Virus record (IMG/VR): IMGVR_UViG_3300034102_000007
Span: 1-25,259 of that record
DNA length: 25,259 bases
Strand: one strand, 5' to 3'
Source: a virus
How positions within the stretch are numbered: the first letter of the stretch is position 1; each line of letters starts with the position of its first letter. The notes below the pieces were generated by a model that was not told the DNA's origin, made no database searches, and was given only the letters and a program-made list of their open reading frames with translations. Below are positions 999-22,369 of this stretch, piece after piece. A program made the position numbers and the translations under genes.

Positions 999-1024
999 TG
1001 TTTTTTTATAAAATATTTAACACT

Positions 1025-1095
1025 TATTAATAAAAAATCAACGAGCATTTGCTACGCAAATAAACACCTCTCTATATTAATAAAAAATCAACGAG
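1025..1095. repeat. Pair of 21-bp direct repeats, 50 bp apart
   Basis: The same 21 bases, ending in AAAAAATCAACGAG, occur at 1025-1045 and 1075-1095, with starts exactly 50 bp apart. The second copy abuts the first base of the plus-strand fibre homology (GGTTCTGC at 1095). Between the copies lies a perfect dyad, ATTTGC-tac-GCAAAT (1047-1061). The repeats occupy the divergent region between the glycosyltransferase and the headless fibre cassette, so they may be recombination-site remnants or promoter/operator elements. On the minus strand each contains TTGATT, a possible -35. Confidence 0.75.
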
Positions 1096-1164
1096 GTTCT
1101 GCGGTACAAGTGTTAAGAGTGAATAGAATATTATGTAATATACTAGCTACTGCATTAGAGTTTG
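1095..1164 (+). repeat. Left arm of inverted repeat in fibre genes
   Basis: This stretch matches, in inverted orientation, the minus-strand fibre gene at 2714-2768. The order of matching blocks is GGTTCTGC (1095-1102), CAAGT, TTAAGAGT and AATAG with single mismatches between, then an exact 19-bp block GCTACTGCATTAGAGTTTG (1146-1164). The left arm carries 19 bases at 1127-1145 where the right arm has only four, a net gain of 15 bp or five codons. Both arms encode (V)QVLRVN..ATALEF in the same frame, so exchange between them keeps the reading frame. Confidence 0.85.
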
Positions 1165-1667
1165 GAACATTAGCTAGTGGAATATTACAAGTTAAGAAAA
1201 CATTAATTACATCTACTATTTCAACTACAGCTTCACACACAAGTTATACAGATGTTTCAGGATTTAGTGTTTCAATAACTCCAACTGCATCAAATAGTGT
1301 AATTTTGCTTTTAGGAATGATTAATAGTTCATCTGTTACAGATGGTGCTAATAGAATAAGATATAGATTATTAAGAGGTTCAACTGATATTACAGTACCA
1401 GATAGTCCAGGTTCAAGACAAACAGGTTTTTTTACAGTTGCTTATGAAACTGATGGTTACGAACCTACAAATGGTTCATTAATTTGGTGGGACACTCCAG
1501 CAACAACTTCATCAATTACATATAAATTACAAGTAACTCATAATTATACTCCTGGTACACAAGTAGCTTATATTAATCGTTCTCATTCACCAGATGGTGA
1601 CAATGTAGATAACGCTAGAACAGTATCTTCTATTGTTGCAATAGAAATATCAAACTCAATATTATAA
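1110..1667 (+). CDS. Alternative tail-fibre C-terminal module without its own N-terminus (probably silent)
   Basis: The frame encodes about 185 residues that look like the receptor-binding end of marine phage fibres: ATALEFGTLASGILQVKK, then a Thr/Ser-rich beta domain ending at a TAA at 1665-1667. Homology to the minus-strand fibre gene begins at its residue 74 (GSAxQVLRVN). The first possible start is a GTG inside that shared region with no ribosome-binding site, and the frame is open upstream without a proper start. It therefore looks like a stored fibre tip that becomes expressed only when joined to the 85-residue N-terminus of the 2178-2987 gene. The 1670-1972 gene follows directly. Alternatively it is a degraded relic, but the open frame and intact partner gene argue against decay. 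Confidence 0.7.
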   Translation: MLRVNRILCNILATALEFGTLASGILQVKKTLITSTISTTASHTSYTDVSGFSVSITPTASNSVILLLGMINSSSVTDGANRIRYRLLRGSTDITVPDSPGSRQTGFFTVAYETDGYEPTNGSLIWWDTPATTSSITYKLQVTHNYTPGTQVAYINRSHSPDGDNVDNARTVSSIVAIEISNSIL

Positions 1668-1669
1668 TT

Positions 1670-1972
1670 ATGAAAATAGATTTAGCACAAACAATATTAA
1701 AATTAAATCCAACTGCAAAAGTTTCAATAACAAATGATGTTTACGAAACTATTGTTTGGAATGATACACCAAAAATAGATTTAGAAACTATTTTGGCTAA
1801 ACAAAAAGAACTTCAAACAAATGAAGATTTAAAACAATACCAAAGAGATAGAGCTAAAGCATATCCTTCAATAGAAGAACAATTAGATTTACAATATTGG
1901 GATAAGGTTAATGGTACTGATACTTGGGAACAAGCTATCAATGCTGTTAAAGCACAATACCCTAAGTCTTAA
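1670..1972 (+). CDS. XkdW-like small protein, partner of the plus-strand fibre module
   Basis: This 100-aa protein ends with a recognisable signature: RAKAYPSIEEQLDLQYWDK, then WEQAINAVKAQYPK. This is the YPS..EQLD..YWD...G..W..AI..VK..YP pattern of XkdW-like tail proteins found after fibre genes in many phages. Such genes are thought to act in fibre assembly or attachment; the biochemical role is not established. It starts two bases after the stop of the fibre module, so the two form one cassette. Its TAA (1970-1972) interleaves with the TAA of the opposite gene (1971-1969) in the shared TTAA, giving an exact tail-to-tail junction. It has no clear ribosome-binding site and probably depends on coupling. 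Confidence 0.65.
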   Translation: MKIDLAQTILKLNPTAKVSITNDVYETIVWNDTPKIDLETILAKQKELQTNEDLKQYQRDRAKAYPSIEEQLDLQYWDKVNGTDTWEQAINAVKAQYPKS

Positions 1973-2169
1973 AGAATAGATTTAACTTCTTCTTCAGTTA
2001 AACCAAGTGCTGTAAGTTTTGCTAATGCACTTGCTTTAGCATCAATCTTAGCTTGTTTTTCTGCTTCGTAAGCTATTCTTTCTGCTTCATGTTTAATAGC
2101 ATCTTGCTCTCTTTGTGCTATTTCTTCAGCAGTTAAATCGTATTCTATATTATTAATTATTTTTTTCAT
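1969..2169 (-). CDS. Small fibre-partner protein of the minus-strand cassette
   Basis: This 66-aa protein begins MKKIINNIEYDLTAEEIAQR, has a helical Ala/Glu/Lys-rich middle (coiled-coil-like, about residues 14-50) and ends LAKLTALGLTEEEVKSIL. This layout is common downstream of tail-fibre genes in marine cyanophages and pelagiphages and is often taken as a fibre-associated or assembly protein. AGGA seven bases before the ATG, overlapping the stop of the fibre gene, supports the start and coupling. It is the positional counterpart of the plus-strand 1670-1972 gene, although the two sequences are not obviously alike. Confidence 0.7.
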   Translation of the reverse strand: MKKIINNIEYDLTAEEIAQREQDAIKHEAERIAYEAEKQAKIDAKASALAKLTALGLTEEEVKSIL

Positions 2170-2177
2170 ATTTTATC

Positions 2178-2987
2178 CTATGCTTTAATTCCGTAAAGTT
2201 TAAATGTACCAGCCATATTTCCACTATCTTGGAAAAAAGATATTCCACTTAAAGCACCAGTACTAGTTAATCTACCAAAACCAAATCTTCTATAATAATC
2301 TGCATTATTTTGATTAGTACTTGTGCCATCAAATATAATTGAAGGATATACGGCAGTACTTAATGGATTAGGAATTTGTATAATATAATTATGTGCAGTA
2401 ACTCCAGCATTATCCATATCCTGAGATAGAGCAATATAACTAACATCCCAACTACTTTCATTAGTGGCTACATCACTGCTACTTGAATTTCTCATAACTC
2501 TACCTGATGCATATCTATAATTTGAAGCTGTTACATCTGCATTACTTCTTCTAAATCTTACTCTTGGAAAACTACCAGCAGTCGCACAAGCATATCCATT
2601 AATATAAATAACATAATTATCGTAATCTGATGAAAAGTATCCATCAAAACTTACTGAAGCTGCAGAAGCAGTAGTTGTAGAAGCAAGTTTTACAAAATCA
2701 GAACTTACAGCAGCAAACTCTAATGCAGTAGCACCACTATTTACTCTTAATACTTGCGAAGCAGAACCGAGTGTAGTTAGTCCAGTTCCACCATTTGCTA
2801 CAGGTAGTGTTCCTGATAATTGAGATACACCGATTGTTTTATTTGTTAATGTTTGAGTTCCTGTTGTTGTTACAACTGTAGAAGGTAATGTTAATGTTGT
2901 TGCAGAAATGTCTAATGTTTGTCCAGAAGGTATTGTTATCGTACTACCTGTAGCAGCTTCAATTGAATTTACTTTAATCTTTGACAT
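2178..2987 (-). CDS. Short tail-fibre / tip protein, currently expressed version
   Basis: This 269-aa protein has a standard marine-phage fibre N-terminus: MSKIKVNSIEAATG, a Thr-rich beta part, TLTNKTI (46-52), SGTLPVANGGTGLTTLGSA (58-76), then LRVNSGATALEF. Residues 86-269 form the variable receptor-binding end, with beta-rich VSFDGYFSSDYDNYVIYING and RVRFRRSNADVTASNYRY segments. It probably sits at the distal end of the fibre, or is a second fibre, and recognises host surface sugars or proteins. Residues 74-91 carry the inverted-repeat arm shared with the plus-strand module; crossing over there would replace residue 86 onward. A weak AAGAAA precedes the ATG. It follows the long fibre gene by 37 bases. 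Confidence 0.8.
   Translation of the reverse strand: MSKIKVNSIEAATGSTITIPSGQTLDISATTLTLPSTVVTTTGTQTLTNKTIGVSQLSGTLPVANGGTGLTTLGSASQVLRVNSGATALEFAAVSSDFVKLASTTTASAASVSFDGYFSSDYDNYVIYINGYACATAGSFPRVRFRRSNADVTASNYRYASGRVMRNSSSSDVATNESSWDVSYIALSQDMDNAGVTAHNYIIQIPNPLSTAVYPSIIFDGTSTNQNNADYYRRFGFGRLTSTGALSGISFFQDSGNMAGTFKLYGIKA
2714..2768 (-). repeat. Right arm of inverted repeat in fibre genes
   Basis: Read on the minus strand, this stretch gives GGTTCTGC (2768-2761), a four-base variable piece, CAAGT, TTAAGAGT, AATAG and, four bases later, the exact 19-bp block also found at 1146-1164. The centre contains TGC-ttc-GCA, a short dyad similar to TGC-tac-GCA at 1050-1058. The arm lies within codons 74-92 of the short fibre gene, whose upstream part would be constant and downstream part variable after inversion. 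Confidence 0.85.
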
Positions 2988-3024: not shown

Positions 3025-4887
3025 CTATAATATTCTCAATTCACTACCACTTGCGATAGTCCAAGTAAAGCCTGAATTTACAGTAATTGGACCAAATAAA
3101 GCAGCATTAACTGTGCCAGCTACAGTAGTTGTTACGTCTGCTGTTATAGTATTATAGTTTGAAAAATAATCACCTTCAGTTGTAATATTTCCACCTTGTA
3201 ATGTAGTAAAAGATAATACTCCTGAACCATTAGTTTTTAATACTTGATTAGCAGATCCATCAGCTTGTGGATAAGATAAACCATCTAATACAACTGAACC
3301 AGTTCCATTAGGTGTAATGTTAATATTACCATTTGATACTGATACAATAGAATTACCATTAACATCTAAGTTACCACCTAGTTGAGGTGTACCATCTTGT
3401 ACAACATCTGTAATACCACCTGAAGTAATTGCTACCCAAGCAGAACCTGTGTAATATTTTAAATTACCTGCAGTTGTGTTGTAATATAAATCTCCAGCAT
3501 TAAGTGCATCACCATCATTATCTAATGTTGGATCATTAGCTTTAGCACCTAAGTATGTATCATCAAAACTATCTGTCGCAGATAGAGCTGCATCTCTTGC
3601 AGCGTTAGCCGCATTAGCTGCATTACTAGCAGTGTTAGCAAAGTTACTAGAATTGTTAGCAAAGTTTGATGAGTTGCTAGAATGGTTGCTAGATGCGTTA
3701 GCGAAGTTACTAGAATTAGCAGAATGATTAGAGCTATTACTTGCATGATTGCTAGAAGCATTGGCAAAGTTTGAACTGTTAGCCGCATGATTTGAACTGT
3801 TGTTTGCAAAGTTAGATGAATTGGCAGAATGATTAGATGAATTACTAGCATGATTAGATGCACTGTTTGAAAAATTACTTGAGTTAGCAGCATGATTAGC
3901 AGAAGCATTAGCTGAATTAGAACTATTGTTTGCAAAATTACTTGAGTTAGCTGAATGATTTGATGCTGAGTTTGCACTGTTACTAGAATTATTTGCAAAG
4001 TTAGAAGCATTGCTAGCAGCATTTACTGCAGCATTAGCATTAGCACTTACATCAGCTAAATAAGTTGAAGCTGTATTAGCTGAATTTGAAGCATTGTTTG
4101 CAAAATTAGAACTGTTTGCAGAATGATTAGCAGATGTATTGGCACTATTAGATGAGTTGTTAGCAAAATTAGATGAGTTAGAAGCATGATTGGCTGCAGC
4201 GTTAGCATTTGCAGATGCTGCTGCGTTATCTACAATTAAAGTATATTTAGCTGATTCAGCATTTGTAGTTAGTGGTTCAGCACCAACAGATGTGTGTGAA
4301 GTATTAACAATAAATATGTTTGCAGTAGATGTATCTTTAACTAGATCTCTAGCATTGTAAGTAGTAGCAGCTGCCCAGTTCCCTCTGTAAGTTCCAAGTT
4401 CTTGTGTAACTGATATTTCTCCACTTGCATCAAATGCTAAAATCTTATTAGCACGAGCAGTAGCACCTACATTAAACTCTGTAGATGTCATTGTATTTGT
4501 TTTAGATAACTTAATTGATCTTTGTAATTCTTCCTGAATTTCTTGAGCTATCATTGTAACTCTATCTAGAGCTTCTTCGTGTGAATTAGCAGGGAATGGA
4601 TCGTTTGCTACATAATCTGTTTCTTGTGTCTTTGTTGTATTTCTTTTTAAAACAACAGTCTGTCCAGTAACAGGAGCTGCTAAGAATGTAATGTTACCGC
4701 CTCCGGCACTACCAACACCAGATACTGTATAATCAGTTGTTTTAGTTTTTATTGTTTCAGTTCCATCAGAAGTACGAATAATAACCTGAATTTCATCATC
4801 ATCTAATATTTTAAATGTATAAGCAAATACAGTAGTTGAACTATTGCCACTGTAACTAACTTTAACTGTAGTTGATGATATTGTCAT
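3025..4887 (-). CDS. T7 gp17-like tail fibre with long heptad shaft
   Basis: Residues 1-130 of this 620-aa protein match the T7 fibre N-terminal (virion-attachment) domain: VSYSGNSSTTVFAYTFKIL, the YTVSGVGSAGGGNITF turn, TVVLKRNT, and the EEALDRVTMIAQEIQEELQRSIKL helix. Residues 221-435 form a repetitive Ser/Asn/Ala shaft with a seven-residue period (SANSSNF, ANNSSNS, ANTSANH and variants). Residues 436-620 form a beta-rich end (GDLYYNTTAGNLKYYTGSAW, GTPQLGGNLDVNGNSI, ITPNGTGSVVLDGL). The protein should be a trimer attached to the tail tube and should carry the tip protein or contact the host directly. AGGG six to seven bases before the ATG is a good ribosome-binding site. The repeated 21-bp units in the DNA make length change by slippage or recombination likely. 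Confidence 0.88.
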   Translation of the reverse strand: MTISSTTVKVSYSGNSSTTVFAYTFKILDDDEIQVIIRTSDGTETIKTKTTDYTVSGVGSAGGGNITFLAAPVTGQTVVLKRNTTKTQETDYVANDPFPANSHEEALDRVTMIAQEIQEELQRSIKLSKTNTMTSTEFNVGATARANKILAFDASGEISVTQELGTYRGNWAAATTYNARDLVKDTSTANIFIVNTSHTSVGAEPLTTNAESAKYTLIVDNAAASANANAAANHASNSSNFANNSSNSANTSANHSANSSNFANNASNSANTASTYLADVSANANAAVNAASNASNFANNSSNSANSASNHSANSSNFANNSSNSANASANHAANSSNFSNSASNHASNSSNHSANSSNFANNSSNHAANSSNFANASSNHASNSSNHSANSSNFANASSNHSSNSSNFANNSSNFANTASNAANAANAARDAALSATDSFDDTYLGAKANDPTLDNDGDALNAGDLYYNTTAGNLKYYTGSAWVAITSGGITDVVQDGTPQLGGNLDVNGNSIVSVSNGNINITPNGTGSVVLDGLSYPQADGSANQVLKTNGSGVLSFTTLQGGNITTEGDYFSNYNTITADVTTTVAGTVNAALFGPITVNSGFTWTIASGSELRIL

Positions 4888-21647: not shown

Positions 21648-21902
21648 TTATGCGCCTAATAAAGTTTTAGTTGAAAGAGTAGTCTGATCGCTTACACCAG
21701 ATGGAGATGTAAGTATAGTCATAGATCTACCTTTTCTTTTTGCTTTTAATAATCTTGATGTTTCTCCTTGCTCAACTTCTGCCTGAGTAGGTGATGATAA
21801 AGGTTGTGGTTTCGGAGCTTCTACTTGTGGAGCTGCTGCTGCAGGTTTTGCTCCTCCTCCAAAAAGTGGTGCTATTATTTTTACTGGATTTGCTCCTCCC
21901 AT
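21648..21902 (-). CDS. Tandem mini-protein 3 with KRKGRS-LLG motif
   Basis: This 84-aa protein has an N-terminus MGGANPVKIIAPLFGGG, a Pro/Ala linker, then SRLLKAKRKGRSMTILTSPS and KTLLGA at the end. The same KRKGRSxTxL...G...KTLLGx ending occurs in the two genes before it, so the three are tandem paralogs. Proteins with this ending lie near terminase and portal genes in many phages, but their function is not established; a head or connector accessory role is inferred. Its last codons, TTA-GGC-GCA-TAA, precede the portal ATG by one base. Confidence 0.75.
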   Translation of the reverse strand: MGGANPVKIIAPLFGGGAKPAAAAPQVEAPKPQPLSSPTQAEVEQGETSRLLKAKRKGRSMTILTSPSGVSDQTTLSTKTLLGA

Positions 21903-21903
21903 A

Positions 21904-22149
21904 TTAACTTCCTAATAATGTTTTTTTAGATACTGATGCTTCGTCAGCAACTCCAGAAGATGAACTAAGAACAGTTGCTGATCTTCCTTTTCTTTTTACT
22001 CTTAACAATCTTTTTGTTTCGCTTTCTTCTTTTGCTTCCGCTTGTTTTGTTTCTTCTTGTTTTGGTTCTTCTTGTTTAACTTCTTTTATAATACCTTTGT
22101 CTTTTGCCATTCCTATAACTTTAGTAAATGCTCCTTTTGCTCCACCCAT
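21904..22149 (-). CDS. Tandem mini-protein 2 with KRKGRS-LLG motif
   Basis: This 81-aa protein begins MGGAKGAFTKVIGMAKDKGI, has a Glu/Lys/Gln-rich helix or linker (KQEEPKQEETKQAEAKEESE) and ends with RVKRKGRSATVLSSSSG and KKTLLGS. The linker is charged, unlike the Pro-rich linker of the first copy, so only the C-terminal motif is under clear constraint. GGAGAA in the last codons of the preceding gene serves as its ribosome-binding site. The function is unknown. Confidence 0.75.
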   Translation of the reverse strand: MGGAKGAFTKVIGMAKDKGIIKEVKQEEPKQEETKQAEAKEESETKRLLRVKRKGRSATVLSSSSGVADEASVSKKTLLGS

Positions 22150-22150
22150 A

Positions 22151-22369
22151 TTATTCTCCTAATAAAGTTTTCTTCTGTAAAGTTTCTTCTTCTGTTAATC
22201 CTTCTGGACCAGTTAAGATTGTAGATGATCTACCTTTACGTTTACGTTTAATTTCAGCTTGTTCAGCAGCAACTTTTGCTTTTCTTTCTTCATCATCAAA
22301 AGCAGGTGGCGGCGCTGGTGGTGGCGGAGGTGGCGGCGGCGCCGGAGCTTTAGGCATTAAAAATCCCAT
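22151..22369 (-). CDS. Tandem mini-protein 1, polyproline linker and KRKGRS-LLG motif
   Basis: This 72-aa protein starts MGFLMPKAPA, followed by an almost pure proline/alanine stretch (about residues 7-27), an acidic-basic helix (DDEERKAKVAAEQAEIKRKR) and the ending KGRSSTILTGPEG...KKTLLGE. The polyproline part makes a GC-rich patch in an AT-rich genome. GGAGAA five bases before the ATG is a strong site. As first of the three copies after terminase it is probably virion-associated, but no activity can be stated. Confidence 0.75.
   Translation of the reverse strand: MGFLMPKAPAPPPPPPPPAPPPAFDDEERKAKVAAEQAEIKRKRKGRSSTILTGPEGLTEEETLQKKTLLGE

Follow-up and report, generated by a model that had tools for sequence, protein, structure and literature searches.

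A probable invertible tail-fibre tip cassette in an HTVC010P-type podophage, with counterparts in uncultured relatives

The stretch of DNA analyzed here (the window) is an IMG/VR virus fragment of 25,259 bp and represents an incomplete genome, lacking ~10 kb. Its list of open reading frames (ORFs) includes two fibre units arranged tail-to-tail. The minus strand carries an expressed fibre gene of 269 aa (2178..2987), in which residues 1-85 form a constant shaft and hinge and residues 86-269 a tip designated type A, together with a 66-aa partner gene (1969..2169) encoding a probable fibre assembly factor. A gene of the same partner family follows A-type tips in other contigs. The plus strand carries a silent fibre tip module, type B, without an N-terminal shaft (1110..1667) and its own 100-aa partner gene (1670..1972; PHROG 9114, E 1.6e-23). 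Tip B matches the tail fiber protein family PHROG 6942 over profile positions 542-707 of 708. A single TTAA at 1969-1972 provides both stop codons where the two units meet. Elsewhere in the window, a 620-aa fibre contains 21-nt periodic repeats encoding Asn/Ser/Ala-rich heptads (3549-4207), and a tandem array of three small paralogues (84, 81 and 72 aa) sharing a KRKGRS motif adjoins the portal gene (21648-22369).

The two fibre units are bounded by an exact 19-bp inverted repeat, GCTACTGCATTAGAGTTTG, located at 1146..1164 on the plus strand (silent-side arm) and 2714..2732 on the minus strand (expressed-side arm), and coding in frame for ATALEF on both sides. With up to three mismatches allowed, this sequence has 2 matches in the window versus 0.00 expected from shuffles; it is not expected by chance. 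The wider similarity of the arms, from about 1094 to 1164, is also real, the silent copy differing by a 15-nt insertion (VLRVNRILCNILATALEF vs VLRVNSGATALEF). This insertion lies in a constant border on the silent side (1067..1145, plus strand), encoding VLRVNRILCNIL. In seven other contigs, the 19-mer occurs once, as their ordinary hinge sequence; thus, arm identity alone does not prove recombination. Next to the border is an intergenic stretch (999..1066, no strand assigned). It contains the first copy of a direct repeat, TATTAATAAAAAATCAACGAG, whose two copies, at 1025 and 1075, are spaced 50 bp from each other in the region of the conserved silent border (1025-1095); a promoter, an enhancer or an old duplication are possible roles for these copies.

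Inversion of the 1,587 bp between the outer ends of the arms (1146..2732, no strand) was carried out in silico. It joins residues 1-85 to tip B in a protein of exactly 258 aa, places the start of partner B 2 nt downstream, and leaves on the plus strand a headless frame of 196 aa bearing tip A. An initial annotation of the window, made without database searches, had given the coordinates of the four ORFs, the common TTAA, the exact in-frame repeat, the wider similarity around it and a predicted inversion product of 258 aa with exchange of the partner gene; all of these held, and the 15-nt insertion is an addition.

The window phage is an HTVC010P-type podophage, as determined by major capsid homology and gene order: in the major capsid protein it shares 65-71% identity with Pelagibacter phage isolates, with which its gene layout was compared. 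The initial designation 'T7-like' is thereby corrected, being valid at most for shape. The cultured phages HTVC010P/HTVC203P, HTVC026P and HTVC106P have virion gene families in common with the window and with other carriers of such cassettes, described below, in two of which a terminase (G031, 56%) and a structural protein (L206, 75%) show identity to cultured pelagiphage relatives. Unlike the window, the Pelagibacter phage isolates checked have all fibre genes on one strand and no inverted cassette.

Structure prediction yielded compact beta domains for both tips, following hinge residues modelled as disordered. The tip A model is an all-beta domain (pLDDT 86, pTM 0.82) that resembles viral tail-fibre tips with TM-scores up to 0.88, and no convincing match to it was found in the PDB. 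The tip B model has a fold like that of TNF-type lectins and of the fibre head of cyanophage A-1(L), a short tail fibre. These models fit receptor-binding tips, a role that is predicted only and for which there are no binding data.

A search with the exact silent border retrieved, besides the window, only two contigs, L004 and L005. As the initial annotation had proposed, these relatives were compared for a swapped arrangement: L004 keeps the layout of the window, with a 20-bp inverted repeat, and L005 shows the reciprocal state. In L005, the same silent border precedes a tip and a partner that are both A-type, and the 196-aa headless frame is the predicted reciprocal product; the contig stops before its expressed fibre. 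DNA identity between the window and L004 is 84% in the neighbour gene, 95.6% in the intergenic stretch, 97.5% in the border, 100% in the core, 65% in the silent tip, 71% in the expressed tip and 90% in the tip A partner gene. For L005, the corresponding values are 92.4% in the border (1067..1145) and 82% in the next gene. With the border at 92-98% against 82-84% for the neighbour gene and 65-71% for the tips, the border is strongly constrained while the tips change. A search with the neighbour gene returned 80 contigs, and the border was absent from those in which the upstream stretch was read, except L005 (recovered again as L144). Those inspected gene by gene have their fibre clusters on one strand.

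Profile searches with tips A and B identified three further cassettes, in L196, L242 and L206, which have exact repeats of 30, 30 and 42 bp, respectively, at the homologous hinge (QVLQTNGSGVLSF). A hinge pattern, in which 22 of the 26 bases of a 26-mer were fixed, matched 45 stretches in IMG/VR. Two copies were present in 26 contigs, in opposed orientation in 26/26 and 1.36-1.65 kb apart. Both arms carry the 26-mer CTTCAAACAAATGGAAGTGGGGTTTT in 25 of these 26 contigs, and exact identity stops within 26-30 bp. The four wobble positions left free by the search show no variation in 20 distinct phages, and adjacent synonymous codons vary; some single, unpaired hinge copies do vary at those four positions. 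In each census cassette, one arm follows a shaft and the other a short border. The silent frames are open for 125-199 codons in 26/26 contigs, and those of L004 and L005 are open too. Arm sequence and length depend on the lineage (19, 20, 26-30 or 42 bp) but the arm is always hinge code, and the tips are common across many lineages, as the profile searches with both tips showed. GTDB genomes do not contain the 26-mer and no complete copy was found in phage records, so neither a host nor a cultured carrier was identified.

The window has just two alternative modules, whereas more than two occur in 11 contigs of the wider class. These have a second, outer inverted pair of 30-31 bp, mostly 216 nt upstream, and thus form nested cassettes with up to four tips; an outer pair GTTCTTAAAGACAGATGGTGCTGGGAATTT surrounds the inner 26-bp pair in L255 (4900-8300), L288 (2700-6000), L260, L261, L262, L264, L268, L270, L275, L290 and L291. 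The convergent partner genes of most census cassettes (for example, L254, L269, L287) overlap at the centre in a near-constant joint of their stop codons, CCTAAAGAATAGACTTAACTTC, which may be a second connector for exchange of one cassette half. L271 has an inverted hinge pair at 1202 and 2790 with two mismatches (GGTGTTTT vs GGTGTACT), possibly a decaying or a newly formed cassette. By eye, ORFs of L165 (11181-12032) and L189 (6669-7337) start like fibres (MAYIGKQ) and continue as an apparent HNH-type endonuclease (VHHIIPKSCGG); a homing endonuclease in the fibre cluster is a possibility inferred from sequence alone.

Several pairs of contigs differ by inversion. Between L254 and L269 the flanks are colinear (88% and 84% identity), and the whole segment aligns only when inverted (73%). 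The flanks of L262 and L290 are 96% and 99% identical and enclose 882 bp inverted at 81%. L255 and L288 have a 0.8-kb tip unit, 96% identical, at opposite positions inside nested inversions. L284 and L273 match L206 at 99.6-99.7% identity for 5,010 bp, up to the last base of the 42-bp arm, and have a different tip beyond it, of the type that is silent in L206, although L273 runs on for only 10 bp. The L284 tip is only 78% identical to the silent tip of L206; thus, tip replacement must have occurred as well. Tip types are found at both expressed and silent positions: B is expressed and A silent in five contigs, and A expressed and B silent in five (two of the B/A contigs being near-copies of one phage). 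Both orientations were observed by comparison of contigs and not within one clone, each contig showing only one, and there is no read-level proof for the window's phage. An assembly artefact was considered; against it, usual read lengths exceed the length of the arms and the pattern recurs in many metagenomes, but mis-joins at the 42-bp arm of L206, L284 and L273 cannot be excluded without reads.

The initial annotation had noted no invertase in the window; this held, and extended to relatives for the families tested. Serine recombinases (PF00239) and tyrosine recombinases (PF00589) were each found in 0/16 and 0/44 records, the PF00239 controls being positive, and Piv/IS110-type DEDD recombinases (PF01548) in 0/44, the 44 records being the hinge-bearing contigs. 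Near relatives were covered for PF00239 and PF00589 but not for PF01548, and many records are fragments; the negative set includes G031, a siphophage carrier of 32,570 bp that looks near-complete by gene content. The four arm sequences show no more dyad symmetry than shuffles, and no dyad half-sites were found around a 2-bp core. A promoter scan gave 12 sites versus 12.3 expected, that is, no enrichment.

An ERF annealing protein is encoded by HTVC203P, HTVC010P and the near relative G007; the internal virion proteins of G007 and the window are 98% identical over the part available. Neither ERF nor RecT was found in the window fragment or in G031; G031 does encode an exonuclease. For Redbeta, the published minimal pairing length is 23-27 bp, and for RecA it is 31-34 bp (PMC3945230). 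Arms of 26-42 bp in the census class fit the Redbeta value, while those of the window and L004 (19-20 bp) fall below it and fit poorly, the window arm being 19 bp with imperfect similarity outward. Invariance of the 26-mer may reflect a recognition site or the freezing of two copies obliged to match. Its constancy between phages suits site recognition better than simple homology, with the caveat that the search pattern itself fixed most of the bases. Inversion driven by annealing, through a phage exonuclease and an ERF-type single-strand-annealing protein, is preferred to an unseen site-specific recombinase, but it is as likely to be wrong as right.

These observations make it likely that segment 1146-2732 is an invertible tail-fibre tip cassette serving as a host-range switch. 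The anatomy, its conservation, the presence of both states in relatives and segment inversion in the wider class are shown by comparison; the flip in the window's own phage, which was not directly seen, and a change of host range through tip choice are inferred. The proposal of a switch in the initial annotation is thus supported as the best reading. It was to be refuted by a single orientation in deep populations and in all relatives, or by independent expression of the plus-strand module with its own N-terminus; relatives show both states, and silent modules have no consistent start codon or N-terminus. In the proposed mechanism, one of two receptor-binding tips would continue the constant shaft, and each tip would come with a dedicated partner gene; short in-frame inverted repeats in the flexible hinge would enclose the two tip-partner units, which are arranged tail-to-tail. 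Recombination at these repeats would flip the segment, silencing the current tip and fusing the other to the shaft, and the likeliest machinery would be the phage's exonuclease and ERF-type annealing protein acting on repeats of about the minimal pairing length.

The strongest competitor retains the switch but assigns it to a site-specific recombinase that has escaped recognition, is encoded in genome sequence absent from the fragment, or acts in trans from the host or from a different phage, with the 26/30-bp hinge repeats as its sites. The identity of the 26-mer on both arms, its invariant wobble positions and its sharp end favour this view, as do the distinct inner and outer repeats of nested cassettes and the proposal of trans-acting invertases for a recombinase-less phage locus (PMC6109161). 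Against it stand the absence of matches to the three families in the 44 hinge-bearing contigs, the near-complete 32.6-kb carrier included, and to PF00239 or PF00589 in near relatives, as well as arms that lack a dyad, vary in sequence and length by lineage and are always hinge code. It is less likely than not. Alternatively, tips may be exchanged at the hinge between phages by ordinary homologous recombination, in-place inversion being rare or absent. The divergence of the L206 and L284 tips, in backbones of 99.6% identity, and the spread of tips across lineages agree with this, but it leaves unexplained both the opposed silent tip and partner with matching arms in all 26 paired contigs and the whole-segment inversion of L254/L269, and is considered unlikely.

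Two further explanations dispense with a switch, and both are very unlikely. The plus-strand unit could derive from a fibre gene that was inserted backwards and is now a dead remnant, without any inversion, as its missing N-terminus, the single orientation of each contig and a tip dN/dS near 1 would allow. However, the silent frames are open throughout the census contigs and in L004 and L005, conservation is higher in the border than in the flanking gene, and segments are inverted between related phages. The dN/dS is saturated, and thus neither proves selection on silent tips nor separates silent from expressed ones. The plus-strand module could instead be expressed by itself from the conserved border, starting at a GTG (1110), as a separate short fibre or chaperone-like protein. 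The border is strongly conserved (999-1145) and the window, L004 and L005 all have a GTG, but the equivalents in L196 and L206 lack a usable start ahead of the hinge, A and B tips both occur behind the same border, and promoters are not enriched.

If the invertible cassette is real, relatives of the SAR11-type phages, which are abundant, could reversibly flip their host-recognition tips in a genome of ~33-35 kb without a known invertase; no report of such a switch in these phages was found in the literature searched. It would also help to account for the high variability of their fibre region, and both states, the sites and the predicted junctions are specified to the base. A bolder reading is that uncultured pelagiphage relatives widely carry tail-fibre shufflons, single or nested at two levels and offering up to four tips, that operate with no site-specific recombinase dedicated to them, the phages' own recombination proteins flipping tips at invariant 26-30 bp hinge repeats near the minimal pairing length. 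This can be advanced only tentatively, the balance being slightly against it; if true, repeats common to many phages would double as connectors for tip swaps between them. The nested form is a compact shufflon for asking whether general recombination proteins suffice for a programmed switch.

Among known systems, Rin, a shufflon of bifidobacterial prophages, exchanges the C-termini of receptor-binding proteins by inversion, and a trans-acting enzyme was suggested for another inverted locus (PMC6109161); Rin has a flanking tyrosine recombinase and 11-bp sites, neither of which was found in the window class. The Min shufflon of p15B generates several fibre tips by multiple inversions (PMC6109161), to which the nested two-level cassettes are comparable. 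Min has a serine recombinase, whereas the nested cassettes have two pairs with different repeats and no recombinase was found. Gin and Cin are named as fibre switches (PMC6109161). Gin of Mu and Cin of P1 have a constant N-terminus, two convergent C-terminal modules with partners, and in-frame coding inverted repeats. The window class differs from them in that no serine invertase was found, the arms lack the dyad of an invertase site and arm length is 19-42 bp depending on lineage. Since the recombinase and site features tested are not met, the switch is not assigned to the Gin, Cin, Min or Rin systems. Of the Gin/Cin resemblance drawn in the initial annotation, the mechanism is unsupported and the organization held: like Gin and Cin, the window combines a constant N-terminus with convergent alternative C-termini and their partner genes, bounded by in-frame inverted repeats, and both orientations are seen by contig comparison.
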